Shown: piece by piece, positions 4,672-43,212 of the stretch | How positions within the stretch are numbered: the stretch's first letter is position 1 | How the letters are laid out: each line of letters begins with the position of its first letter | Source of the DNA: an uncultured Clostridia bacterium | GTDB taxonomy: Bacteria > Bacillota > Clostridia > Christensenellales > CAG-314 | Direction of reading: 5' to 3' | NCBI GenBank assembly: GCA_947601445.1 | Contig: CANQGD010000009.1 | Coordinates: 1-49,582, forward strand | Length of the DNA stretch: 49,582 nucleotides | Translations under genes and position numbers: made by a program | The notes under the pieces: model-generated | What the model was told of the DNA's origin: nothing | What the model saw: only the letters and a program-made list of their open reading frames with translations | Database searches by the model: none

Positions 4672-5544
4672 TTATCGAGCATTTCCGATAGCCGATAAAA
4701 CAATCCCGATGTCGTCGTTTATACAGATTGCCTGCTTTTGTATTTGTTCGGGGCAGAAGGCTTCGCCGTAGTTGATGCAAGCGTAGATTGCGCGTTTGTT
4801 TTGTGCGGTTAGCCGCCAGAACGGATATTTGATGATTGCGGGCGTGTTGTATCCCACGCCGAGTTCGAGATACAGCACTTTGCTTTGCTTGTGCGCGTTT
4901 ATGAACCGTTCGTAACGCTCGCAAGCGATGTTCCAACCCTCGTCCTGCACAAACTTGTCGTCGGCGCGCAAATTCATCGTCATCGGCTTGCCGCACACGG
5001 GGCAGCGCGGAATAAGTTCGGTCGGAATCCGCATGCGCCGTTGCTCCGCTACCATGCGACGGACAACTTCCTCGTTGTCATATGTTTTGTTGTGGCAAGG
5101 CACTGAGCATTGAAACAGCCCGTAATCGCCCTGCGTGTAGAACAGCCGCTTCTTATCGAACCCCGCCTTCTGAAAACAGTGGTCGACGTTGGTGGTGATG
5201 ACGAAGTAGTCCTTGTCCTTCACGAGGTCGAAAAGTTCTCGGTAGACGGGCTTGGGCGGGTCCATATAGCGATTGACGAGGATATACCGCGACCAATACG
5301 CCCAATGCTCCTCGGGCGTATCATAAGGATAAAATCCACCCGAATACATATCGCGAAAACCGTATTTCTCCCCGAAGTCGGAGAAATATCGCTCAAAGCG
5401 TTCGCCCGAATAGGCAAATCCCGCCGCGGTGGAAAGTCCCGCGCCTGCGCCTATAATTACCGCGTCGGCACTTGCAAGCGCAGATCTCAGGCGCGCAATG
5501 TCCGACCCAATATCGTTGTTTTTTGTTATTTTACTTGCAAGCAT
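4672..5544 (-). CDS. Macrodomain-linked sirtuin (SirTM), protein ADP-ribosyltransferase
   Basis: The 290-residue protein has the Sir2 fold signature: an NAD-binding loop GAGAGLSTAAG at about 32-42 and TTNVD at 117-121. The usual catalytic histidine of deacetylating sirtuins (HG before the zinc module) is replaced by Q138 in YTQGDYGLFQC. Zinc ligands are probably C146, C150, C181 and C184. This glutamine and the asparagine in TTNVD match the class M sirtuins described in staphylococci and streptococci, which transfer ADP-ribose to protein rather than deacetylate. It is the last gene of a minus-strand run, six nucleotides behind the DUF5131 gene and close to a macrodomain hydrolase, the standard partner. 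The usual target genes gcvH-L and lplA2 are absent nearby. The ribosome binding site is weak, suggesting coupling to the gene before it. Confidence 0.9.
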   Translation of the reverse strand: MLASKITKNNDIGSDIARLRSALASADAVIIGAGAGLSTAAGFAYSGERFERYFSDFGEKYGFRDMYSGGFYPYDTPEEHWAYWSRYILVNRYMDPPKPVYRELFDLVKDKDYFVITTNVDHCFQKAGFDKKRLFYTQGDYGLFQCSVPCHNKTYDNEEVVRRMVAEQRRMRIPTELIPRCPVCGKPMTMNLRADDKFVQDEGWNIACERYERFINAHKQSKVLYLELGVGYNTPAIIKYPFWRLTAQNKRAIYACINYGEAFCPEQIQKQAICINDDIGIVLSAIGNAR

Positions 5545-5550
5545 ATTATC

Positions 5551-6447
5551 TCAATCCGTTATGTCTATAATTTCGTCTTGACATCTGCCGCAATCGGAAC
5601 AACCGTTGCATATCAGGCGATTGCCGCAATTTACGCAATTTTTGCGGTAATGGGGCTTATATAATTCGCTTTCGAGAATGGGTAGCCCCATTCGGTCGCA
5701 AAGTTTGAACTCGATTGGCTTGCCTTTATAGGCAAGCCCTTCCGAATAGGCGAGATAAGTTTGGCGCACCTTGCTCTTGATAAACCGCGTAACGCCGTTT
5801 TTCACATAATAATTTCCCGTTTCGATAAATGCAAACGTGACATTGTGTGCGACGCACTCGTCGTGCAATTTTTTTACCCATTCGCATCGGCAGGGACGGG
5901 CGCCGTCGTAATTTTCTCCGCCGCAAATAACCTGCTCGATCTGTCCTTCGTCGAGGTATTTGTCTATCGTGATTTCTCCGATGAGCGGTGCGGTCATGAT
6001 TCCCTTGTGCTTGAAGGGCAGCTCGTGAAGAATGGGGATACGTTCGTCGGCGCGACGTTGGTTTTCGCAAGTCACGTTAAAAAACACGTTTTCCCACCCG
6101 TTACCCCAATCGCGCGGCAAACATTTTTCCACCCTTTGCGGACGTTTGGTCAACAAAAAGAATTTCACGTCGGAGCGTTTGCGTATGATGTTCCACGCAT
6201 CGTTTCTCCATTTGTCTGCGCCCTCCACGAAAAAGTCCGAGGACATACAGACGCGGATCATCTCGCCGCTTTGTATTTTGTACCTGCCGTTCCGCTCTTT
6301 CGAAAGGGGATAGGAAAATCCCGATGTTTTTGCGACGACAGAGCTGTCCGTCCGACCGTGACTTTGGTCGAAAAAGTACATATAACAATGAGCGCAGCCC
6401 TCGCTGCATTTTTGGCAGCCGTGCCATGGATTCCAAATATCGTGCAT
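5551..6447 (-). CDS. DUF5131 (Gp37/Gp68-like) radical-SAM-type protein
   Basis: The 298-residue protein starts with WNPWHGCQKCSEGCAHCY, the signature of the DUF5131 family. Within it C14, C18 and C21 form a CX3CX2C motif typical of a radical-SAM [4Fe-4S] site. Further family features are the FFLLTKRPQR block and ICGGEN. A C-terminal cysteine cluster at about 272-290 (CVNCGNRLICNGCSDCGRC) looks like a zinc ribbon or a second cluster site. The reaction is not known for the family; radical chemistry is inference from the motif. It sits between the macrodomain and SirTM genes with gaps of 3 and 6 nt, so the three are surely co-translated. Its start has GGAAAGGAAGG upstream, inside the end of the macrodomain gene. 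Confidence 0.85.
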   Translation of the reverse strand: MHDIWNPWHGCQKCSEGCAHCYMYFFDQSHGRTDSSVVAKTSGFSYPLSKERNGRYKIQSGEMIRVCMSSDFFVEGADKWRNDAWNIIRKRSDVKFFLLTKRPQRVEKCLPRDWGNGWENVFFNVTCENQRRADERIPILHELPFKHKGIMTAPLIGEITIDKYLDEGQIEQVICGGENYDGARPCRCEWVKKLHDECVAHNVTFAFIETGNYYVKNGVTRFIKSKVRQTYLAYSEGLAYKGKPIEFKLCDRMGLPILESELYKPHYRKNCVNCGNRLICNGCSDCGRCQDEIIDITD

Positions 6448-6450
6448 AAT

Positions 6451-7227
6451 TCAACCTTCCTTTCCGAGAAGTTTGGCGTAAATTTTTTGGTCTTGTTCTT
6501 TAAACACGTTGAAAATTACCTTGATTTTGCTTTGTGTTTCTTGTTTGTATTCCCGCACAGTCCGAACGGCAATCTCTGCGGCGCGCTCGTTCGGAAAATG
6601 GAATTCGCCCGTAGAGATACAACAAAAGGCAAGGCTTTCAAGTCTGTTTTTATCGGCAAGAGCGAGGCAGGAACGATAACAACTTTCAAGCAGTCGCTCG
6701 TGTTCGGCATTGAGCGCGCCGTACACAATGGGACCGACTGTGTGGATAACGTGTTTACACGGCAAATTGTAAGCGCCCGTAATTTTGGCGCCGCCCGTCG
6801 GTTCGTCGTGTCCTTGCGCTTTCATAATCTCGGCGCACTCCCGCCGGAGTTGAACGCCCGCAAAGGTGTGAATGGTGTTGTCGATACAGGCGTGGTTGGG
6901 ACAAAAACAGCCGAGCATTTGCGAATTGGCGGCGTTTACTATCCCGTCGCATTTGAGCGTTGTTATGTCTCCCTGCCAAAGATATATGTCGGGCAAAACA
7001 GGCGTAAGGTCAGCAATATCCGTTATATCTTTTTGCCGCAACTCTTCGCGCAAATATTCGTCTTGTATGCGCAAAAATTCTTCACTCGCCTCTTTCGGTT
7101 CACGCACGTTGAAAAGCGCACGCAAGAGCCTTTTTTGAGAAAATTTATCATCGGGAATTTTCGCTCGTACATTCTGTTCGGCTGACATGTATTCAATTAA
7201 GTATTTTCGGCGTTGTTCTTGATTCAT
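6451..7227 (-). CDS. Zinc-containing macrodomain protein-ADP-ribose hydrolase
   Basis: The product has 258 residues. About 75 N-terminal helical residues precede a macrodomain with IVNAANSQMLGC, GGAKITGAY and HVIHTVGP. The segment GCFCPNHACIDNTIH carries the Cys/His set of zinc-macrodomains that are encoded with SirTM sirtuins. These enzymes remove ADP-ribose placed by SirTM, so the pair gives a reversible modification; that is known for the family and inferred here. It lies three nucleotides before the DUF5131 gene. No strong ribosome binding site precedes its ATG (7225-7227), and the 56-nt gap to the upstream cupin gene shows no terminator. Confidence 0.92.
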   Translation of the reverse strand: MNQEQRRKYLIEYMSAEQNVRAKIPDDKFSQKRLLRALFNVREPKEASEEFLRIQDEYLREELRQKDITDIADLTPVLPDIYLWQGDITTLKCDGIVNAANSQMLGCFCPNHACIDNTIHTFAGVQLRRECAEIMKAQGHDEPTGGAKITGAYNLPCKHVIHTVGPIVYGALNAEHERLLESCYRSCLALADKNRLESLAFCCISTGEFHFPNERAAEIAVRTVREYKQETQSKIKVIFNVFKEQDQKIYAKLLGKEG

Positions 7228-7283
7228 AACATTAACAATATGGTGCGAAATGCCGCGATTTTTTCAATTGCGTTTTTTTTGTC

Positions 7284-7640
7284 TTACTCTACAATTGCGT
7301 CGGTTGCAGTATAACCTTCCAGCGAGTTTGATTTGACCTGTATGCAGATGTATTTGATTCCGCTATTTTCCGAGGCGAAGAATCTGCGGCGTGCGGTGGG
7401 GGAGATGCGAAGCCAATCGCCCGCTACAAGAGAAACTGTTTCGCCGTCGATTACGGCGCTGCCTTCTCCTTCCAAAATTCCGTAGATTTCCTCATTTTGC
7501 TTGTGCGCATGCACAAAGGGTACGCTCGCTCCCGCAGGGAGTGCATTGATGCTGATTTCAGCGCCCGTGAGACCAAGTGCGTCGTGCAATTCCACGCGTG
7601 CGTCTTCTTGTACGTTTACTTTTTTGTAAGTGTTTGACAT
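7284..7640 (-). CDS. Small cupin-domain protein
   Basis: The 118-residue single-domain cupin has metal-binding motif 1, FVHAHKQNEEIYGILEGEG (H-x-H...E), at about 40-58. In the second motif the usual histidine is replaced (SPTARRRFF), so metal binding may rest on fewer ligands. I start it at ATG 7638-7640, nine nucleotides after GGAGG, rather than at an upstream ATG with no such site. The substrate is unknown. It leads the minus-strand run with macrodomain, DUF5131 and SirTM genes and is opposed by an HxlR regulator, so it is probably the first induced gene of the unit. The -10 box and a palindromic operator lie at 7693-7734. Confidence 0.85.
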   Translation of the reverse strand: MSNTYKKVNVQEDARVELHDALGLTGAEISINALPAGASVPFVHAHKQNEEIYGILEGEGSAVIDGETVSLVAGDWLRISPTARRRFFASENSGIKYICIQVKSNSLEGYTATDAIVE

Positions 7641-7692
7641 AATGGATACCTCCGAAAAATTTATTTTGTAATTCTCATTGATTACGCCCATA

Positions 7693-7734
7693 GTATAGCA
7701 AAAAAATAAAATGATTGCCGAATTGTTACAATTC
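7693..7734 (-). promoter_or_regulatory. Cupin-operon -10 box and candidate HxlR operator
   Basis: Read on the minus strand, TATACT (7693-7698) is a good -10 box without a clear -35. Just upstream, 7720-7734 is a perfect palindrome, GAATTGT-T-ACAATTC, in the gap between the cupin operon and hxlR-like gene. HxlR proteins are dimers that bind such sites; the assignment is inference. Confidence 0.55.
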
Positions 7735-7779
7735 TATTATCCGATAATAAATATATTACATTGTTTCTTTTTTGAACTA

Positions 7780-7808
7780 TTGACGTGCATTTCACACTAT
7801 GCTATAAT
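7780..7808 (+). promoter_or_regulatory. Sigma-A promoter of the HxlR regulator
   Basis: TTGACG (7780-7785), 17 nt, TATAAT (7803-7808), giving a leader of about 105 nt before the ATG at 7921. Confidence 0.85.
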
Positions 7809-7920
7809 ATAAATACAAAATTTATCTTCAAGAGATTGTGATTATCCGCGTAAATGGCCAAATATATGCGGCTATATCATTATGATGTAATAAGAAAGGT
7901 TTTTAAGGAGGTGTGTGAAA

Positions 7921-8253
7921 ATGCTGACGAAAGACGAACTGCCGGAATGTCCCGTTGCGACGACTGTACAACTCATCGGCAACAAATGGAAACTATTGTT
8001 GATTCGCAATTTGATATACAACGGAAAACAGCGTTTCACGGATTTTATCAAAACGATACCCGCTATCAGCAAAAAAGTACTTACGGACAATTTGCGCGCG
8101 CTGGAAGAGGACGGACTTATCGAGCGTCAGGTATTTGCCGAAGTGCCACCGCGCGTGGAGTATTCGTTATCTCCGCTTGGAAATTCGCTTCGTCCCATCA
8201 TCGACGCAATGGCTGATTGGGGAACAGAGTATAAAAACAGTGGTTGCGAATAG
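7921..8253 (+). CDS. HxlR-family transcriptional regulator
   Basis: The 110-residue winged-helix protein has the HxlR pattern: CPVATTVQLIGNKWKLLLIR, then ISKKVLTDNLRALEEDGLIE and YSLSPLGNSL. An N-terminal cysteine (residue 10, in ECPV) is where redox-sensing relatives such as HypR and YodB carry theirs, so thiol or electrophile sensing is possible but unproven. I choose ATG 7921 because GGAGG ends nine nucleotides before it; the GTG at 7915 would be too close. The gene is divergent from the cupin-macrodomain-DUF5131-SirTM operon and is its likely regulator. Confidence 0.92.
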   Translation: MLTKDELPECPVATTVQLIGNKWKLLLIRNLIYNGKQRFTDFIKTIPAISKKVLTDNLRALEEDGLIERQVFAEVPPRVEYSLSPLGNSLRPIIDAMADWGTEYKNSGCE

Positions 8254-8315: not shown

Positions 8316-8607
8316 ATCATAAGTAATCGGATATTGTAAAAAGGGCTGTTAGTAGTGTTTTGCTGTGACTACTTGTTTTTCTTGACGATCCTTAAAAGTG
8401 TAAACGCTCTGTTGGATTTTTCTCCGAAAAGGGCTTATCCCCATTGATCAACTTGAAGCTTTCTTCTTTTTATGCTATATTCAGAGAGGAAAAAATGATA
8501 TACAGGGGCATAAAATATGTATTGATGTAGATTTGGTGGCTGAATTTTTTGCTCGCTTCTACAACATAATGCGGATTATGTCGCTGTCGGATTTTCGGCG
8601 GCTTTTT

Positions 8608-9139
8608 TTATAGGATCAGCCTCATTGATTCCATTCTGCGGCGGTGCTCCATGCCGGTGCTGACAATATAGATCATAGTGGTGTTGACGCTGCTGTGACC
8701 GAGAATATCTGCCAGCATTGCAATGTCCTTTTCGATACCGTAAAACACGCGTGCAAACAGGTGGCGCAAATTGTGGGGGAACACCTTTTGCGGGTTGACC
8801 ATTGCCTGCTCGCACAGTGATTTCATCTCTCTCCATATGTTGGTGCGATTCATCGGTTTGCCCGTACGGGTGACGAAAACGGTTCCGGACTCGATTTTGT
8901 GGGTTTCTATATAGCCGAGCAAATTTTTTTGCAGGGATTTTACAAGAAATATCGTCCGCGCCTTGTCTTTGAGGGTCACGACAGCCTTGTCGCTTTTCAC
9001 CGCCTCCGTCGTAATGAACGGCAGTTCGCTCACCCGAATGCCCGTCCCGCAGATATTTCTCCACGGTATTTTTGCTCTTTTCCTCGCGTTTGAGGTGTGC
9101 CCGAAAATCTTCAATGATTTTTTCGTTAATAATAGTCAT
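8608..9139 (-). pseudogene. Tyrosine recombinase/integrase, internally deleted and frameshifted
   Basis: The N-terminus, starting at 9139, gives about 32 residues of a SAM-like core-binding domain (ending KNTVEKYLRD). At about 9044 the reading frame jumps into a catalytic domain that begins GTGIRVSEL. The catalytic part keeps all family residues: Arg in GIRVSEL, Lys in TLKDKART, HNLRH, LGHSSVNTT and the Tyr in YIVSTG. Roughly the middle half of a normal integrase of about 290-300 residues is missing and the join is out of frame, so no working enzyme can be made. It is the only mobile-element gene in the window and marks past integration activity in the region to its left. Confidence 0.85.
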
Positions 9140-26725: not shown

Positions 26726-29700
26726 ATGAAAAGATTTGTGGCAACCATGTTGGCGATATTGCTTGTTTGCACATGTTTTTTGGCTGCGGCATGCGACGCA
26801 ACCATCAAGGTCACTTTGCACAACATCGACGATGGCACAATGACCATTAACTATGACAGTACCAAACAACTGCCTACGCCCGAAAGGGAAGGATACACGT
26901 TTGACGGTTGGTATCTTGACGAGCAGTTGAGCGAGCGTTTTGCCGAAGGCACGGAGATGAAAGAGGATTTCAATCTCTATGCAAAGTGGAACAAAAAACC
27001 CGCTTCGCCCGACGAACCCGTTACTCACACGGTTACACTCGTTTACAACGACGGAGTTACGCAAAACAAACAGCTTGTCGTTGTTGACGGCATGCCCGCT
27101 CCCCTTCCATCAAATGTCCAACGCCAAGGCTATCGTTTCGACGGTTGGTGGACGGCAGAAACGGACGGACAGCAATGGACAGATCAACCCGTAACGGAAA
27201 ATATCACCCTATATGCGCGTTGGACGGATATTTCTCAATCCAACCCAACGATCCATTCCGTAACTCTTTGCTATCACGACGGCTCAACGCCCGACGGAAA
27301 GCTCACCGTAGAGGATGGTAAGAAAGCGACTCTTCCCATGCCGTCTCGCAACGGATACAATTTTATTGGTTGGTTTACGCAGGAGCAAGGCGGTACGCAA
27401 TGGACGGATCAATCGGTAACTTCCGACATCACGCTTCACGCACGGTGGGAAGAACAAATCACAACGGTGTTGCCGACTTCCATCCGAGTTACACCTTCGA
27501 GCCTGTCTCTCACGGTCGGATCGACTCACACTCTCGTTGTTTCGGTACTTCCCTCGGAGGCTAACAACAAACAAGTTACGTTCGGTTCTTCCAACTCGAT
27601 AGTAACGGTTGATGACGGCGGCACTGTAACCGCACGTAGCGTCGGTTCAGCTACGATCACGGTAACCAGCGTTGCAAATCCGCAGGTCCACGCGACTGTG
27701 AACGTGACGGTAACTTCCGGCAGCCAGGGCGGCGACACTCCCACCCCGCCGGTAGAAAACAAGGGAACGCTTGAAAATCCCTATACTCCGTCCGAAGCTC
27801 TTGCGCTCAGTCAAAGCATGAGCAACGGCGAATTTACCGCGACCGCGGTATATGTGCAAGGGTATGCCGTAACAGGCAAGTACTATGAAAATTCTACGCC
27901 GCTTAAAGGCAGTAGCGGAGATTGGAAGTTGCACCTTTCCGATACGGCAGGCGGTAGCGAAAACTTTTATGTGGAATATGCAACTCCGAGAGACAGCTCT
28001 GTCACGATAGTTGCGGGTGACCTGGTGTTGGTATACGGTTACATAGAGATGTGGAATGATTCCACACAAATGTACGGCGGGCACGATTCCGGCAAACCAC
28101 AACCGGAAGTTATTTCCGTAAACGGTAGCAGTCAGGGTGGCGGAGGAAGCCAAGGCGGTGGTACCGGCGGCGATACTCCCACCCCGCCGGTAGAAAACAA
28201 GGGAACGCTCGCAAATCCCTATACTCCGTCCGAAGCTCTTGCGCTCAGTCAAAGCATGAGCAACGGCGAATTTACCGCGACCGCGGTATATGTGCAAGGG
28301 TATGCCGTAACAGGCAAGTACTATGAAAATTCTACGCCGCTTAAAGGCAGTAGCGGAGATTGGAAGTTGCACCTTTCCGATACGGCAGGCGGTAGCGAAA
28401 ACTTTTATGTGGAATATGCAACTCCGAGAGACAGCTCTGTCACGATAGTTGCGGGTGACCTGGTGTTGGTATATGGTTACATAGAGATGTGGAATGATTC
28501 CACACAAATGTACGGCGGGCACGATTCCGGTAAACCAAAACCGGAAGTTATTTCCGTAAACGGTAGCAGTCAAGGCGGCGGAGGAAGTCAAGGCGGCGGA
28601 GGCACCGTACAGGGAAACGCAATAGTAATTTCTGCTGCCGACTTTGGCGTTTCAGAAACAAAAGAAATGCCTGCGACAAAAACAATCAACGGGATTAATT
28701 TCACTTTTTCAACAGGAAGCGGTCAAAATCCGCCGGCGTACTATGCACCCGCAATCAGATTGTATTACGGCAATACAATGACAATAAGCGGAACGACCAT
28801 CACGAAAATCGTATTTACTTTTGCTACGGGTGACAAAACTAATACAATAACGGCGGACAAGGGCAATTATGCTTCGGGCACTTGGACGGGCTCTGCGAGT
28901 TCGGTAACCTTTACCGTTGGCGGTACAAGCGGTCATCGCAAGATAGCTTCGATAACAATTTATACCGACGGTTCTTCATCCGGTTCCGGAGGTGGCACGT
29001 CGCAGCACACGCAACACGATTTCGGCGATAGTTATTTTGTATATGTAAAGTGTTCCGGTTGCGAAGTTTACGGCAGAAACTCGGGCAGCCGCAATTTCGA
29101 AAACAAATACGACTACAACTCTTCCAAGCAAACGGAAATAAACAATCACTACAATGCCGCCAACACTGCGTTGAACGGTACCGCACAAAATTTTGCGGAA
29201 GCTTTGAAAACGTACGAAAACGATTTGGAATATCTGGACGGACAATGGAGTTGGGAAAGCCTTTACGGCGACACCAAGACGAGTTTCAATGCCCAAGGTG
29301 CAAGCAGCGCTTACAATACCGCGCTCATCAATTTTTGCAATTTGATTTTGAAAGCAGACGAAAAGTTTTCGGACTCATTTTGGACATTGTATCCCGATGA
29401 CAAGACTGAAACTTTGGCTATGGCAAAGTTGTACGCCAATACGCCCACAAGCAGTGACGTCGACACCATTTTGGATAAGTATTACACCGAAATAAACAAA
29501 ACCACGCCCAATGTTTCCACAATTGAAAATTTGTATTCACAATTGGTTACTGCCTACAACAAAGAAGCAACCGGTTACAAATACGAAAACTATATGGAAT
29601 ACGCATACGAAAACGTTTACAACCGCGAATACAGTGAAACCGATATAATAAAAATGCGCGGCTTCATCAAAGAATATATTGTGCCTGTATTTCAGGAAGT

Positions 29701-30712
29701 AGTCAAGAAATATGATGCGTTATATACGGGCTATGATTACGAATCAGATGAAAATTATATAGAATTTGACAATGAAAACGACGAAAACTTATATTACGGT
29801 CTCAGAGCAGAGTCGGTTTTCGAAGACGAAAGTTACGAATATTTTGACAGCAGAGTGCGCAACGCAGTCAATTATATAGGCAGTTATTTCGAATGGTTGG
29901 ATAAAACCAATGCCAATGATATAGGCAGCAACAAGAATATTGCATTTACCTCTGCCGTCAACAATATGTTCAAAACAGGCACATATTTCCGCGGCGACGG
30001 CGAGGGCGCATATACGATGTGGGTGCCTCATGACAATGTCGCGGTTTGCTATTTTCAGCAAGGTGACGAAGAGTATTACGGTTATGACGACGCGTTTACA
30101 TTTGTACACGAATTCGGTCACTATTATGAAAATATTCACAACGGCGGAGTATCGTTGAGCTACGATCACGACGAAACGCAAAGCCAGGGCGATGAAATGT
30201 TGTTTTTGGCATGGTTGGTTAAAAACGTGGATTCCTCTTTGGCAGAGGGACTGAATGCGGTAAAATTGGAATCGCTTTACTACATGTTGGATACTATCAT
30301 CACTGCGGCTGCCGTGGACGAATTGGAGTGGGCGGCTTACAAGGGTGAAGTCAGCAACGGCAATTACAACACCAAGTTTGAGGAAATTTTGAAAAACATG
30401 GTGGGAGCGGACCTCTTAGACTATATGGATACAAGTTATTGGTACTATGTTGCATTTGACAACGCTGCTTATTATGTATCCTATGCCATAAGCGCATTGC
30501 CCGCAGTGGAAATCTACGCCATCGCGCAAAACAGCGGTTTGGAAGCTGCTCGAACAGCCTATCTGAAACTTTTCAGTTACTGCGAGGATGAGGCTCGTAT
30601 GAACGACTATTCTTACACGGGCGCAAACGGAGTGTTGTCTTTCTGCGGACTCGGAAGCCCGTTTGAAACAAAAATTTACACCGATATAAAAAGTTTTGCA
30701 AGCACACTGTAA
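26726..30712 (+). CDS. Giant lipoprotein zinc peptidase (M3-like, HEFGH) with InlB, BIG2 and OB-like repeats
   Basis: The 1328-residue protein has a lipobox (LAAAC, C23), three InlB_B-type repeats (about 26-90, 100-167, 178-245), a BIG2 Ig-like domain (about 250-330), and two nearly identical OB-fold-like modules (about 336-475 and 482-620). One beta-rich module follows (about 630-755), then a long helical part and a metallopeptidase core with HEFGH at 1128-1132. The acidic stretch ETQSQGDEM about 20 residues later resembles the third zinc ligand region of M3 oligopeptidases. It is thus an exported, membrane-anchored peptidase on a repeat stalk; the substrate is unknown. The ribosome binding site AAGGAG precedes the ATG. 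Gly/Ser-rich linkers join the modules. Confidence 0.85.
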   Translation: MKRFVATMLAILLVCTCFLAAACDATIKVTLHNIDDGTMTINYDSTKQLPTPEREGYTFDGWYLDEQLSERFAEGTEMKEDFNLYAKWNKKPASPDEPVTHTVTLVYNDGVTQNKQLVVVDGMPAPLPSNVQRQGYRFDGWWTAETDGQQWTDQPVTENITLYARWTDISQSNPTIHSVTLCYHDGSTPDGKLTVEDGKKATLPMPSRNGYNFIGWFTQEQGGTQWTDQSVTSDITLHARWEEQITTVLPTSIRVTPSSLSLTVGSTHTLVVSVLPSEANNKQVTFGSSNSIVTVDDGGTVTARSVGSATITVTSVANPQVHATVNVTVTSGSQGGDTPTPPVENKGTLENPYTPSEALALSQSMSNGEFTATAVYVQGYAVTGKYYENSTPLKGSSGDWKLHLSDTAGGSENFYVEYATPRDSSVTIVAGDLVLVYGYIEMWNDSTQMYGGHDSGKPQPEVISVNGSSQGGGGSQGGGTGGDTPTPPVENKGTLANPYTPSEALALSQSMSNGEFTATAVYVQGYAVTGKYYENSTPLKGSSGDWKLHLSDTAGGSENFYVEYATPRDSSVTIVAGDLVLVYGYIEMWNDSTQMYGGHDSGKPKPEVISVNGSSQGGGGSQGGGGTVQGNAIVISAADFGVSETKEMPATKTINGINFTFSTGSGQNPPAYYAPAIRLYYGNTMTISGTTITKIVFTFATGDKTNTITADKGNYASGTWTGSASSVTFTVGGTSGHRKIASITIYTDGSSSGSGGGTSQHTQHDFGDSYFVYVKCSGCEVYGRNSGSRNFENKYDYNSSKQTEINNHYNAANTALNGTAQNFAEALKTYENDLEYLDGQWSWESLYGDTKTSFNAQGASSAYNTALINFCNLILKADEKFSDSFWTLYPDDKTETLAMAKLYANTPTSSDVDTILDKYYTEINKTTPNVSTIENLYSQLVTAYNKEATGYKYENYMEYAYENVYNREYSETDIIKMRGFIKEYIVPVFQEVVKKYDALYTGYDYESDENYIEFDNENDENLYYGLRAESVFEDESYEYFDSRVRNAVNYIGSYFEWLDKTNANDIGSNKNIAFTSAVNNMFKTGTYFRGDGEGAYTMWVPHDNVAVCYFQQGDEEYYGYDDAFTFVHEFGHYYENIHNGGVSLSYDHDETQSQGDEMLFLAWLVKNVDSSLAEGLNAVKLESLYYMLDTIITAAAVDELEWAAYKGEVSNGNYNTKFEEILKNMVGADLLDYMDTSYWYYVAFDNAAYYVSYAISALPAVEIYAIAQNSGLEAARTAYLKLFSYCEDEARMNDYSYTGANGVLSFCGLGSPFETKIYTDIKSFASTL
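27731..28600 (+). repeat. 438-bp tandem duplication inside the peptidase gene
   Basis: Bases from 27731 recur from 28169 with only a few substitutions, for example GAAAAT against GCAAAT near 27774/28212 and CCACAACC against CCAAAACC. Each copy codes for one OB-like module plus its Gly/Ser linker. The near identity points to a recent duplication or ongoing homogenisation, and copy number may vary by recombination. Confidence 0.93.
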
Positions 30713-38140: not shown

Positions 38141-38298
38141 ACTAACAGCCGAAAACTGCAATATATCCCGCAAATTTTGCGTGAAACAACGGCGCAAAAA
38201 GTTAACTGTGCCGTTTCGTACTTGCGCACCGCCTGTGACCGTGTTTTTGCGGTCGAGCCTTGTGCAAGACGCAAAAAAATATATTGGAGGAAAAAACC

Positions 38299-41200
38299 AT
38301 GCTAAACAGAAAAAGCAAAACCGCATCCGTTATTGTCTGGCTTGCAATCGTGCTGACGTTTTTGTTGGTGTCGGCAGTCGGTTTGCCGACCGCAACAACT
38401 GCATACGCCGCACGAAGCAAAACGGCTTGGGTAACGGTGGGGGAAATTTACAACGACGAAGGCGAATCGTTCAATTCGGCTCAACTTAAAACGTTGTACG
38501 GTTATCTTACGGGGACTCAGAGCTTTGAAGCGGTGAAAACTGCGGCGGGCGAAAAGAAAACTTCCAATGATTTCCGTAGTTTGAACGGCGGCAAAAACAT
38601 TCAGATCACGTTCGGCGGCGTCAAATGGGACGTTGTGTATCTCACAACGGCGACGACAAACGGCGACGTCATTCTCGATTTGTGGCGTTCTTCCGATACC
38701 TTGACAGATACGGATAAGGCGCAATTTGCCACTTGGTCCAATAGTCCGTCATCCGACCCTGATGTGTATCCTTCTTCTATGTACTCTACAAGTATGCTCC
38801 GTGTGAAGTCACTCAATGCGGGCGGGAAGTACTCGACGGTTGGCGACACTCTGTCGGACTTGCAATCGCAGGATGAAAGCAACCAATATGCCCGTTTTAC
38901 GATGGAGAGCGTTGAAGGCAGCTTGACAAAGTATATTGCCAAACCCTCGGAAGTCGGTTATCAGGCAAAAGAGTATAGCGATAATATAAGTCGCGATAAT
39001 AGTAATAAAGCTAACAATGGCTTTTATCACCCAAATTCTTCCTATGAGTATGTGAAAAATAAGGAGCTACCGGGCACAAATCCCCAATGGAATGGTTCTA
39101 ACCAGAATAGTGATGGATTCGACTTTAGGATGTGCTTTGGCTCAGAAGCCAAGGATGCGCTACGTGAGGATGGTGCGAAGTACGGCTCCTGGAAGGATGA
39201 CTATCTTTGGCTGCCTTCTGCAGAAGAAACAGGCAGGGAAAGTCAGACTAAGAATGAGATTGTAGTGAGAACCGGTATTGGTATTTGGTATACCGATGAA
39301 TCTCTCAGGAGTAGTACAACAAATGCTTGGACGCGTAGCGGTCGCACGAATGATGCGTCTATGGCAGTTTCGCTTAATGATACTGGTGCCTATGACCAAA
39401 ATAGGAAAGTAACCAGTAAATATTATGTTCGTCCGGCGCTTCACCTCAATCTGACAGAAGCCTCGAAAAACGTGGCACTGGATAAAGGCGATTGGACAGG
39501 CGACACAAAAACCTATGATCCCAACAACATGACGTGGCAGCTTGAAGGCACCGACATGGTGACCATTGAACCTATGACCAACAAGAGCGGAACGACTTGG
39601 TGGGACGACGCATCCAAAACCATCACCGCAACCCAGGTTGACGATTACCAAATCAAAGTAACGCCAAAAGGCGTCAAATGGAGCGACGGATCGGAAGAAG
39701 GGATCATTGTCACATACAAGGTCATTCCCGCCGAAATCGCGGTAGAGTGGGCAGAGCAAGACGATTACACCTACAAGGGCGAGGCGTTTGAGCTTCCCAC
39801 GGCAACGGCGACGGGCAAGGGAGACGACGGTCAATTTGCGCTTGATGTAAAGATGACCGCCCCCGAAGCCGGCGAGTTTAAGGACGTCGGTACATACACG
39901 TTTACAGCCGAGTTCAAGGGCGGCGCACTCCATGCGGAAAACTACACGCTGACTTCCGCCACCAAGGAAATTACCGTAACAAAAGCGCAGGTAGAGGTCA
40001 AGTGGGAAGAAACGACTTATAGCTACACGGCTTTGGAACTTGCAACTCCCAAAGCGACAGCGGAAGGCAAAGGCAGCGACGGCACTTTGACGCTGGAAGT
40101 AAAGTTGACCGATCCCGAGGCGGGCGTGTTCAAAAATGCAGGAAACTACACGTTTACCGCAAGTTTGAAGGAAGCAAACGAAAAGAACTACGAATTGAGC
40201 GGCGATGTTACGCATCAATACAACGTCGCAAAAGCGGAAATAGAAGTGACGTGGGAAGACGCGACCTACACTTACACTGGTTCTACGCTTACAACTCCCA
40301 AAGCGACGGCAACGGGTAAAGAGGACGACGGTGAGTTTACGCTTGAAGTGAAACAGACCCTTCCGGTAGAAGGTGAGTTCAGAAACGCGGGAAATTACAC
40401 ATTTACGGCAAGTCTGAACGAAACGGACGGCGCAAACTATGAATTGAGCGTAGATAGCTCCACGCACCAATACAACGTTGCGAAAGCGGAAATAGAGGTG
40501 ACGTGGGAAGACGCGACCTACACTTACACCGGTTCGACGCTTACCGCTCCCAAAGCGACGGCAACGGGCAAAGGCGACGACGGCGAGTTTACGCTTGAAG
40601 TCAAGCTGACAACTCCCGAAACAGGCGAGTTTAAGGATGCAGGGGAGTACACGTTTACCGCTTCGTTCCGTACGGAGGAAACAAAGCAAGACAACTACAC
40701 TCTTACTTCCGACACCAAGGAAATAACCGTAGCCAAAGCGCAAGTAGAGGTAAAGTGGGAAGAAGCAACTTACACTTACACGGGTTCGACGCAGACAACT
40801 CCCAAAGCAACGGCGGACAAAGTGGGCGACGAGGGCACTTTGGAGCTTGAAGTTACCATAAAGGAACCTGCCGAAGGCGAGTTCAAAAACGCGGGAAATT
40901 ACACGTTTGAAGCGAAATTGAGCGAAACGGATCAAAAGAACTATGAATTGAATAGCGACGGCACCACACAGCAGTACACCATAGCCAAAGCACAGGTGGA
41001 TGTGACGTGGACGGCGGAAGATAGTTATACGTACAACGGCAATGAGCAAGTTACGCCTACCGCAACGGCAACGGGAGTGGGCAGCGACGAAACGTTGACG
41101 CTGGAAGTTACCATGCAAACTCCCTCCGCAGGTACATTCAAGGACGCGGGACGTTATACATTCCAAGCGGCTCTTAGCGACGAGTACAGCGCCAACTACG

Positions 41201-43212
41201 CATTGCGTAATGACGCAACCAAGACCGTGGAGATAGGTACGGCGAGCATTGCGGTAACGTGGACGAACGACGGAAGTTACACCTACAAAGGTGCGGCGTT
41301 TGAGCTTCCCGCGGCAAGGGCAACGGGCGTCGGTTCGGACGGTGAGTTCACTCTTGAAGTGAGAATAACCAAGTCGCCTGAAAACGTCGGCACATTCAAG
41401 AACGCGGGCGCATACACATTTACAGCCGCGTTCAAGACAAATGAAAACAAACAAGGCAATTACACGTTGACTTCCGCCACCAAGGACTTGACCGTAGCCA
41501 AAGCAAGCGCTGCGTTGAAGTGGGAAGAAACCTCTTACACCTACACGGGTTCGACACTTACTGCTCCCAAAGCAACTGCGGAAGGCAAAGGCAGCGACGG
41601 TACTTTGACGTTACAAGTGACGCTGACGGCACAGGGTGCAGGCGAATTTAAGAATGCGGGAAGCTACACGTTTACTGCGAGTCTGAATGCAACCGACGCA
41701 AAGAACTATGAGTTGAGCGGCAACGCCACAAGGCAATACACCGTAGCAAGAGCAATCGCAGAGGCTGAGTGGGAAGACGCGACTTACACTTACACGGGTT
41801 CGACGCTTACTGCTCCCAAAGCGACAGCGGAAGGCAAAGGCGGCGACGGCGCTTTGACGCTGCAAGTGACGCTGACGACTCCCGAAACAGGCGAATTTAA
41901 GAACGCGGGAGAGTACACGTTTACGGCGAGTTTGAGCGAAACCGACGCAATCAACTATGAATTGAGCGGTAACGCCACGAGACAATACACCGTGACAAAA
42001 GCAGAGATAGAGGCGGAATGGGAAGACGTGACTTACACCTACACCGGTTCTGTATTGACGGCTCCGAAAGTGACGGCAACGGGTATAGGAGACGACGGCG
42101 TATTTACCTTGACGGTTTTGCCGGACTTCACGGGCGATTTCGAAAATGCGGGAAGCTACACATTTAAAGCGGAATTCGATCCGTCCGACGAAACAACAGC
42201 AAACTACACGTTGAAGTCAGATACTGTTTCGTCTACATACAATGTTGCAAAGCAAACGGTGAACGCACCCGAAATTGCGTCCAAAGTGTACAACGGAACG
42301 GCACAGAAAGCCGATGTCGCAATTTCGACTCTCTACACCGTGACGGAGAACAACGGCGGAACAAATGTCGGCGATTACGACGTTAAACTCACTCTTACAG
42401 ACAGTGCAAATTATGTATGGCAGGGCAGTGAAAACGAGACAATCTCTTTGACGTTCTCAATCACCAAGGCGACCTATGATATGAGCAGAGTAATTTTTGA
42501 GGGCGCCACATTCAAAGAGGACGGAACGGGCAAGAGCATTGCCGTTTCCGGTCAATTGCCCGAAGGCGTTACCGTTACATACGAAAACAACAATCAAACC
42601 AAATTCGGCGTATACGAAGTTGTTGCAAAGTTCAGTGGTGACTACGCCAACTACAATGCAATACCGGATATGACGGCGACATTGACGTTGCTGCGCGCCG
42701 AACTCAGCGTAGAAGCGAGCGACACTCCCGGTACCGACGACGAACAAAGCGGACCTGTCGTGAGCGTGGAAAGCGAAGAGGGACTCGATCCTACGGTGGA
42801 ATTGGTTGTGGAGCGCAAAGACACGCCTTCCGAAGAATCCTCCAACGTGCTTGAAACCAACGATTCGCTTCAACCGCTTGAACGCGTGGGCGCAGTGTAC
42901 GAAATATCCCTTCATTCCGACGGCGTTGAAGTACAGCCCAACGGAGAGATAAAGATCAAGATTCGCATACCTTCCGACATGGTTGGCGAACAGTTCCGTT
43001 TGTTGCATATTCACGGCGATCAAGCGATAGAAATCGAGTATCAAATAGAGGGCGATTTCGTGGTGTTTACTACCGACAGTCTGAGTGAGTTTGTATTTAC
43101 GTACAAAGTGTCTTTGTGGTGGCTGTGGCTGCTGTTGGCAGTGGTGGTAGTCGCTGCTGTCGTGACGACGGCGGTTGTAGTGAGCAAGCGCAAACAAAAA
43201 CGCACCAAGTAA
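38299..43212 (+). CDS. Giant MBG-repeat surface protein with C-terminal membrane anchor
   Basis: The 1637-residue protein starts at ATG 38299 behind TTGGAGG. It has a signal peptide ending in AYAA and a head domain of about 370 residues that resembles DUF6273/formylglycine-type folds (WLPSAEE, ending YVRPALHLNL). Ten tandem MBG-like beta modules of about 80 residues follow (about 477-1317; pattern VTWEDATYTYTGSTLTAPK). Then come a different MBG module, a further Ig-like part, an acidic linker, and a membrane helix at about 1605-1628 followed by KRKQKRTK. It is anchored in the membrane by this tail; no LPxTG motif is seen. Codon use in the head (about 38960-39450) differs from the rest. It probably mediates adhesion or forms a stalk; function is inferred. 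Confidence 0.85.
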   Translation: MLNRKSKTASVIVWLAIVLTFLLVSAVGLPTATTAYAARSKTAWVTVGEIYNDEGESFNSAQLKTLYGYLTGTQSFEAVKTAAGEKKTSNDFRSLNGGKNIQITFGGVKWDVVYLTTATTNGDVILDLWRSSDTLTDTDKAQFATWSNSPSSDPDVYPSSMYSTSMLRVKSLNAGGKYSTVGDTLSDLQSQDESNQYARFTMESVEGSLTKYIAKPSEVGYQAKEYSDNISRDNSNKANNGFYHPNSSYEYVKNKELPGTNPQWNGSNQNSDGFDFRMCFGSEAKDALREDGAKYGSWKDDYLWLPSAEETGRESQTKNEIVVRTGIGIWYTDESLRSSTTNAWTRSGRTNDASMAVSLNDTGAYDQNRKVTSKYYVRPALHLNLTEASKNVALDKGDWTGDTKTYDPNNMTWQLEGTDMVTIEPMTNKSGTTWWDDASKTITATQVDDYQIKVTPKGVKWSDGSEEGIIVTYKVIPAEIAVEWAEQDDYTYKGEAFELPTATATGKGDDGQFALDVKMTAPEAGEFKDVGTYTFTAEFKGGALHAENYTLTSATKEITVTKAQVEVKWEETTYSYTALELATPKATAEGKGSDGTLTLEVKLTDPEAGVFKNAGNYTFTASLKEANEKNYELSGDVTHQYNVAKAEIEVTWEDATYTYTGSTLTTPKATATGKEDDGEFTLEVKQTLPVEGEFRNAGNYTFTASLNETDGANYELSVDSSTHQYNVAKAEIEVTWEDATYTYTGSTLTAPKATATGKGDDGEFTLEVKLTTPETGEFKDAGEYTFTASFRTEETKQDNYTLTSDTKEITVAKAQVEVKWEEATYTYTGSTQTTPKATADKVGDEGTLELEVTIKEPAEGEFKNAGNYTFEAKLSETDQKNYELNSDGTTQQYTIAKAQVDVTWTAEDSYTYNGNEQVTPTATATGVGSDETLTLEVTMQTPSAGTFKDAGRYTFQAALSDEYSANYALRNDATKTVEIGTASIAVTWTNDGSYTYKGAAFELPAARATGVGSDGEFTLEVRITKSPENVGTFKNAGAYTFTAAFKTNENKQGNYTLTSATKDLTVAKASAALKWEETSYTYTGSTLTAPKATAEGKGSDGTLTLQVTLTAQGAGEFKNAGSYTFTASLNATDAKNYELSGNATRQYTVARAIAEAEWEDATYTYTGSTLTAPKATAEGKGGDGALTLQVTLTTPETGEFKNAGEYTFTASLSETDAINYELSGNATRQYTVTKAEIEAEWEDVTYTYTGSVLTAPKVTATGIGDDGVFTLTVLPDFTGDFENAGSYTFKAEFDPSDETTANYTLKSDTVSSTYNVAKQTVNAPEIASKVYNGTAQKADVAISTLYTVTENNGGTNVGDYDVKLTLTDSANYVWQGSENETISLTFSITKATYDMSRVIFEGATFKEDGTGKSIAVSGQLPEGVTVTYENNNQTKFGVYEVVAKFSGDYANYNAIPDMTATLTLLRAELSVEASDTPGTDDEQSGPVVSVESEEGLDPTVELVVERKDTPSEESSNVLETNDSLQPLERVGAVYEISLHSDGVEVQPNGEIKIKIRIPSDMVGEQFRLLHIHGDQAIEIEYQIEGDFVVFTTDSLSEFVFTYKVSLWWLWLLLAVVVVAAVVTTAVVVSKRKQKRTK
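39730..42250 (+). repeat. Ten in-frame tandem repeats of about 240-260 bp
   Basis: Ten units code for MBG-like modules that start with a variant of A-x-I/V-x-V-x-W-E-D/E. Neighbouring units share long identical stretches (for example GCGACCTACACTTACAC in three of them), a sign of expansion by unequal crossing-over. The antisense strand is open for long stretches only because of this repeated composition. Confidence 0.88.

Follow-up and report, generated by a model that had tools for sequence, protein, structure and literature searches.

A gut bacterium of the class Clostridia carries, at positions 4672..8253 of the 49,582-nucleotide stretch of DNA analysed here (the window), an ADP-ribosylation operon in which the genes for a predicted class M sirtuin (SirTM) and a zinc macrodomain (Zn-Macro) enclose a gene of the DUF5131 family. 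On balance, we favour the reading that this is an HxlR-controlled redox/electrophile-response operon built round the SirTM/Zn-Macro pair, with the long form of DUF5131 as its most likely target. An initial annotation had described a minus-strand run of cupin, macrodomain, DUF5131 and sirtuin genes opposed by an HxlR gene, with gaps of 56, 3 and 6 nucleotides (nt). The open reading frames (ORFs) were found in exactly this order and the gaps were reproduced from their coordinates.

The sirtuin gene (4672..5544, minus strand, 290 amino acids (aa)) stays under the cut-off of the Pfam SIR2 model (18.5 bits, cut-off 24). Its best match among solved structures is 5a3a (E 4.5e-76), which is catalogued as a SIR2 family protein and which we take to be the S. 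pyogenes SirTM. A glutamine had been noticed where deacetylases have their catalytic histidine, and this Q138 (TQGDYG, with QG for HG) is indeed invariant in all ten SirTM sequences that were aligned, the window's own included. The class M residues that the main text of PMC4518038 gives for SpySirTM (Asn118, Arg192 and GVGx[NT]TP) have their equivalents in N119, R193 and GVGYNTP (229-235), and the genetic linkage of SirTM with a macrodomain is seen as well, on the same strand and with DUF5131 in between. The structure match, the residues and the alignment point to a class M sirtuin, predicted to be a protein ADP-ribosyltransferase. The macrodomain gene (6451..7227, minus strand, 258 aa) encodes a predicted protein-ADP-ribose hydrolase that exceeds the cut-offs of Pfam Macro (132.2 bits) and of the protein-ADP-ribose hydrolase model NF003163 (372.2 bits, cut-off 272), and its best solved-structure matches are 8rsi (top), 5kiv and 8rsl. 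The zinc-type Cys/His loop of the initial annotation was confirmed as C107-x4-H112-x-C114, three zinc ligands within eight residues, and a Dx3H motif is present (D116-NTI-H120). A profile search of the whole assembly gave this one macrodomain match. In another genome of our sample (G085), two tandem SirTM genes adjoin one Zn-Macro (L116:6248-7980; genomes are denoted G and loci L throughout).

The main text of the 2024 Zn-Macro paper names GcvH-L as the single SirTM target known so far and calls the targets of other SirTM/Zn-Macro systems elusive (PMC11490716). The window's assembly comprises 1.6 Mb in 59 contigs and is 92% complete; searched at E 0.001, it gave no match to GCV_H and none to Biotin_lipoyl. 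Among 14 control genomes the same models found GCV_H in 13 and Biotin_lipoyl in all 14 (10 and 14 over cut-off). The earlier claim that no GcvH-L is encoded holds for an assembly of this completeness, if not absolutely, and the search gave no GcvH-L or lipoyl domain that could serve as a target elsewhere in the genome. As to LplA2, the claim of absence stands for the operon, whose genes include neither GcvH-L nor LplA2; genome-wide, the LplA2 family was not searched. These results support the assignment of the unit, by its sequence, as a SirTM/Zn-Macro pair without GcvH-L.

The DUF5131 protein (5551..6447, minus strand) matches PF07505 with 141.5 bits (cut-off 28.9) and is the only DUF5131 match that a profile search found in the assembly. 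It has an N-terminal CX6CX2C motif (C11/C18/C21) and a Cys-rich tail (C271, C274, C280, C283, C286, C289). The initial annotation had called it radical-SAM-like (SAM, S-adenosylmethionine), and the structure model, compared by VIA-align, has a radical-SAM-type barrel. Judged from this model, DUF5131 is probably a radical-SAM enzyme resembling spore photoproduct lyase, with a predicted 4Fe-4S cluster and SAM cleavage. Searches of solved structures gave nothing credible, neither with the single sequence nor with the DUF5131 profile (best E 0.19, a cytochrome peroxidase). Radical SAM members with other spacings of the cluster motif are known.

DUF5131 travels with SirTM in one of its forms. In a sample of 291 genomes of the class, with SirTM called at E 1e-20 and DUF5131 at E 1e-5, the former was found in 53 genomes and the latter in 61, which divide into 15 with a long form that has the conserved Cys tail (>400 bits) and 46 others. 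SirTM is present in 14/15 of the long-form genomes and in 11/46 of the others (Fisher, 2e-6). Because one genus supplies six of the 15 long-form genomes, the count by genus is the fairer test, and here SirTM accompanies the long form in seven of eight genera (6e-5). DUF5131 genomes without the long form are not significantly enriched in SirTM compared with genomes that have no DUF5131 (11/46 vs 28/230, p 0.06); the co-occurrence in the class is specific to the long form. Direct adjacency of the two genes occurs in three genomes, the window's own, G255 and G048, the last with a partial SirTM. In G127 they are on opposite strands with 1.2 kb in between, in G151 the distance is 13 kb, and in G273 a DUF5131 fragment follows an intact SirTM. 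The locus of G048 (L063:8244-9423) has a long DUF5131 that looks intact, preceded upstream by fragments of SirTM and Zn-Macro. In G010, DUF5131 is adjoined by Zn-Macro alone: an EFR1-type ferredoxin flavoprotein, the long DUF5131 and Zn-Macro stand together without SirTM (L065:6843-9156), and a SirTM pair lies on another contig.

Named species genomes hold at least 577 long-form relatives. Of these the best 80 loci were examined, and 26 proved linked, 24 by a SirTM match and two by a nearby Zn-Macro, a rate that is biased by the choice of loci for their likeness to the window's protein. Seven loci were undecidable at a contig end, opposite-strand macrodomain matches in L157 and L159 were excluded from the linked count, and two loci are the same DNA as class loci (L134 as L064, L195 as L066). 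With the exception of L167, the SirTM-bearing loci (23 of 24) have the gene on the same strand as DUF5131, touching it or no more than 100 nt away; four of the SirTM matches are fragments (L129, L144, L187, L199) and one is cut by the contig end (L139). Linkage extends to Bacteroidota (L151, L169). On a tree of the DUF5131 loci, with L201 left out, the linkage label needs at least 14 changes, seven of them forced by the starred branches, and none of 500 shuffles reached a number as low as 14. Gains or losses of the link were frequent, and linked loci cluster on the tree. Together, these counts support the view that the adjacency of DUF5131 and SirTM recurs and is not due to chance. In L196:6500-8870, Zn-Macro, a hydrolase-like gene (recognised by eye only) and DUF5131 follow each other in a row, with the hydrolase-like gene at the usual SirTM place. 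Five genomes from the same family (G016, G106, G051, G275, G239; L067, L070-L073) have, directly upstream of the long DUF5131, genes that belong to a single gene family, and the copy in L073 has a metallo-beta-lactamase-fold domain.

The opposing gene (7915..8253, plus strand, likely start ATG 7921) encodes an HxlR-family regulator with an N-terminal Cys (PECPVATTVQLIG). It exceeds the cut-off of PF01638 (112.1 bits) and stays under that of an RrpB-type redox model (120.9 bits, cut-off 175). The opposed arrangement proved common: a divergent HxlR gene lies within 7 kb in 26 of the 46 fetched class loci that carry SirTM or Zn-Macro, and operator-like sites are shared among the relatives. Motif A (TAGTTWC-N4-7-GWAACTA), at up to two mismatches, occurs in 24 of 39 distinct intergenic regions between HxlR and the cassette, in 1/600 control windows from the same loci and in 16/780 shuffles. 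Motif B (AAGTRCGYACTT), at up to one mismatch, occurs in 23/39, 0/600 and 1/780, respectively. These counts overstate independence, as both motifs were derived from the same regions, many of them from related species. The two motifs are often about 30 bp apart, and we infer that HxlR may bind one or the other. The window has an operator-like site TAGTTCAAAAAAGAAACAA (7761..7779, minus strand), a form of motif A outside the 24 regions counted. A perfect palindrome GAATTGTaACAATTC (7720..7734, no strand assigned) lies over the cupin-side promoter; it has one mismatch in L124 and four in L123 and is not general. Promoter-like sequences, both consensus matches only, are found ahead of HxlR (TTGACG-17-TATAAT, 7780..7808, plus strand, 11/12 consensus positions) and ahead of the cupin operon (TCGGCA-18-TATACT, 7692..7721, minus strand, 9/12), in a region where ten such sites were found and 6.9 expected. 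Beside the HxlR gene, at 8576-9139, lies a possible phage-type integrase remnant in two overlapping frames, with a weak Pfam match of 18.4 bits, below cut-off.

The first gene of the operon encodes a small cupin with the motif HAHKQNEEIYGILEG (7284..7640, minus strand; Cupin_2, 34.9 bits, above the Pfam cut-off). Its ORF is open to 7691, and the start is more likely ATG 7640, behind GGAGG, which gives 118 aa. A cupin stands at the same position in L083, where DUF5131 is absent, and in L123 and L125. In other relatives this slot is taken by the ACGX Cys-repeat peptide and its radical-SAM maturase, by a nitroreductase, by a PNPOx/4Fe-4S protein or by a gene resembling a quinone oxidoreductase. 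Given this variety, the core of the ADP-ribosylation unit seems to combine with redox partners that can take each other's place. A subset of the Zn-Macro/SirTM pairs stands behind the ACGX-repeat peptide (TIGR04341), the radical SAM/SPASM protein (rSAM_ACGX, TIGR04340), a nitroreductase and a PNPOx/4Fe-4S protein. In NCBIfam, the first two together make up the ACGX system. rSAM_ACGX exceeds its cut-off in 11/291 class genomes from six genera, and in each of these a copy has SirTM at most 4 kb away (a further copy in G265 is on a different contig); the peptide is found in 13 class genomes, 12 of them with SirTM. Cys-repeat peptides of the ACGSACG or SSCGA type lie between HxlR and the radical SAM/SPASM gene in SirTM/Zn-Macro arrays, among them L085:4604-4843, L088:11038-11223 (minus strand) and L091:3648-3884, all three confirmed by TIGR04341, and L105:2193-2468, L126:3903-4115 and L151:3960-4259. 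A Cys-repeat peptide, a maturase relative, Zn-Macro, SirTM and DUF5131 stand in one array in L126, L127, L134, L148, L161 and L151 (in L126, L127 and L151 the maturase is assigned by 52-58% identity, not by model). The idea that DUF5131 substitutes for the radical-SAM maturase was ruled out, as both are present in these six loci. L125 encodes almost the same DUF5131 as L126 and L127; where these have the ACGX module, it has a cupin, as have the window and L123. In L160 and L163 the ACGX array is accompanied by DUF5131, without a SirTM match. The models for rSAM_ACGX, the ACGX peptide and the SCIFF maturase gave no match in the window's genome. The clade that is sister to the window's DUF5131 (L128, L130, L132, L133, L156) has the gene with yajC on one side and a SCIFF-type maturase on the other. 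The order in L128:7336-11066 is yajC, long DUF5131, a TIGR04086 membrane protein, SCIFF peptide and SCIFF maturase, the last two confirmed by their models (65.7 and 581.7 bits); in the other four it was read from gene clustering only.

Several observations weigh against our reading. A DUF5131 match lies within about 2.5 kb of SirTM in only 5/53 class SirTM genomes (G000, G255, G048, G127, G273), and no SirTM is linked in 47 of the best 80 loci with the long DUF5131. In a phylum sample of 398 genomes SirTM is present in three of nine long-DUF5131 genomes, including the window's own, compared with 19/398 overall, and the only adjacent pair among the nine is that of the window. The co-occurrence that the initial annotation had expected is above chance in the class and weak in the phylum. 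Its proposal that DUF5131 stands in place of GcvH-L/LplA2 is right in that the unit is without GcvH-L and that the adjacency recurs; a one-for-one replacement it is not, because so many SirTM genomes and DUF5131 loci are unlinked and because SirTM/Zn-Macro pairs without GcvH-L had already been described (main texts of PMC4518038 and PMC11490716). DUF5131 has the spacing CX6CX2C instead of the canonical CX3CX2C. The window is without motif B and has motif A with three mismatches only. G112 and G180 match rSAM_ACGX below cut-off and lack SirTM, and in G215 the ACGX peptide likewise occurs without SirTM. Finally, DUF5131 is intact in loci that keep no more than a fragment of SirTM (L129, L144, L199, L063), and hence it does something without SirTM. 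This weakly suggests that DUF5131 does not serve SirTM but is controlled by it, and that this control is dispensable; the argument is weak because G273 presents the reverse case.

The pair might also act on a target encoded elsewhere, with DUF5131 as a frequent neighbour in a stress regulon, and we regard this as possible, if doubtful. It would agree with the existence of lone SirTM/Zn-Macro pairs in the main texts of PMC4518038 and PMC11490716, with the many unlinked loci on both sides and with the occurrence of DUF5131 in ACGX cassettes without a SirTM match, in the SCIFF locus and beside a metallo-hydrolase-like gene; the tight same-strand linkage repeated in at least two phyla and the specificity of the class co-occurrence for the long form speak against it. 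Sirtuins and macrodomains occur in NAD-based immunity, and a phage-defence system with DUF5131 as the defence candidate was considered. DUF5131 matches two PADLOC models, PDC-M30B (1e-28) and PDC-M41B (9e-28), it is found in viral contigs (74 loci), and the integrase-like match adjoins the operon. The PADLOC hit of SirTM, however, is marginal (Dsr1, E 0.009), macrodomain and cupin have none, the genes found nearby in different genomes encode redox enzymes and HxlR, and SirTM matches occur in 3/76 viral-contig loci, two of which were fetched with the SirTM query itself; a defence role is unlikely. Least probable of all, and very improbable in our view, is a classical system in disguise whose lipoylated GcvH-like target falls into the missing part of the fragmented assembly: no lipoyl-domain match was found among its contigs, and the known GcvH-L and LplA2 are encoded in the operon itself, from which they are absent here.

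In the redox/electrophile-response operon that we favour, stress would act on a thiol of HxlR sitting on the divergent promoter, and the cupin-macrodomain-DUF5131-SirTM transcript would be released. As their conserved catalytic residues suggest, SirTM would add ADP-ribose from NAD+ to an acidic residue in one of the unit's own protein products, and Zn-Macro would remove it. DUF5131 may be held off and then released, by analogy with what has been proposed for GcvH-L in staphylococci. It is the leading candidate target, with, in our judgement, a chance of about a third, followed by the cupin, by the ACGX peptide in loci that have one, or by a protein from outside the operon; whatever DUF5131 works on would be a further likely target. 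More tentatively still, the pair could be the reversible switch in a family of redox cassettes under HxlR control, where ADP-ribose would be placed on thiol-rich proteins that differ from lipoylated GcvH-L, namely the long DUF5131 or the ACGX peptide. The lipoylated carrier of staphylococci would then be one variant among several, and we know of no earlier case of a radical-SAM enzyme or of a RiPP-like peptide (ribosomally synthesised and post-translationally modified peptide) regulated by reversible ADP-ribosylation.

The recurrent cassette offers named candidates for SirTM targets, namely DUF5131, the ACGX peptide and the adjoining redox enzymes. The uncharacterised DUF5131 family gains a probable chemistry, that of radical SAM enzymes, and its SirTM-linked members a probable regulator in HxlR. 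In the open-access literature we found nothing on DUF5131, the ACGX repeat, SirTM with radical SAM, or HxlR with a macrodomain, and no paper that by its title deals with Cys-repeat peptides of the ACGX kind. In neither SirTM paper does the main text contain a word beginning with DUF; that of PMC11490716 also lacks 'radical', and that of PMC4518038 lacks 'radical SAM'. Within that literature, no earlier report of the DUF5131 partner or of the ACGX cassette link of SirTM/Zn-Macro was found. Elsewhere in the window, two very large repeat-bearing genes (26726-30712 and 38260-43212; 1328 and 1650 aa) look by eye like surface or secreted proteins.

Among known systems, spore photoproduct lyase and other radical-SAM enzymes share 10-12% identity with DUF5131 and differ in the Cys spacing, and a role on DNA lesions is not implied. 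PDC-M30B and PDC-M41B, the phage-defence candidates, both match the protein, but their neighbours differ and the DUF5131 described here is the long, Cys-tailed form. The ACGX system shares with SirTM, Zn-Macro and DUF5131 the same HxlR-headed array in relatives, whereas in the window's genome peptide and maturase were not found and the cupin fills their slot. The lone SirTM/Zn-Macro pairs of E. faecalis and Treponema pedis (main text of PMC11490716) are, like the window's, without GcvH-L; the window has in addition DUF5131 between both genes, the cupin ahead and the divergent HxlR. The extended SirTM operon of staphylococci and streptococci consists of GcvH-L, LplA2, SirTM, Zn-Macro, OYE and LLM (main texts of PMC4518038 and PMC11490716). 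In contrast, the window's operon has DUF5131, the cupin and HxlR instead of GcvH-L, LplA2, OYE and LLM, and no lipoyl domain was found in its genome. The catalytic residues of SirTM and Zn-Macro are the same in both, and with the oxidoreductase neighbours that the extended operon shares with the window's relatives, the two have the theme of redox stress in common.

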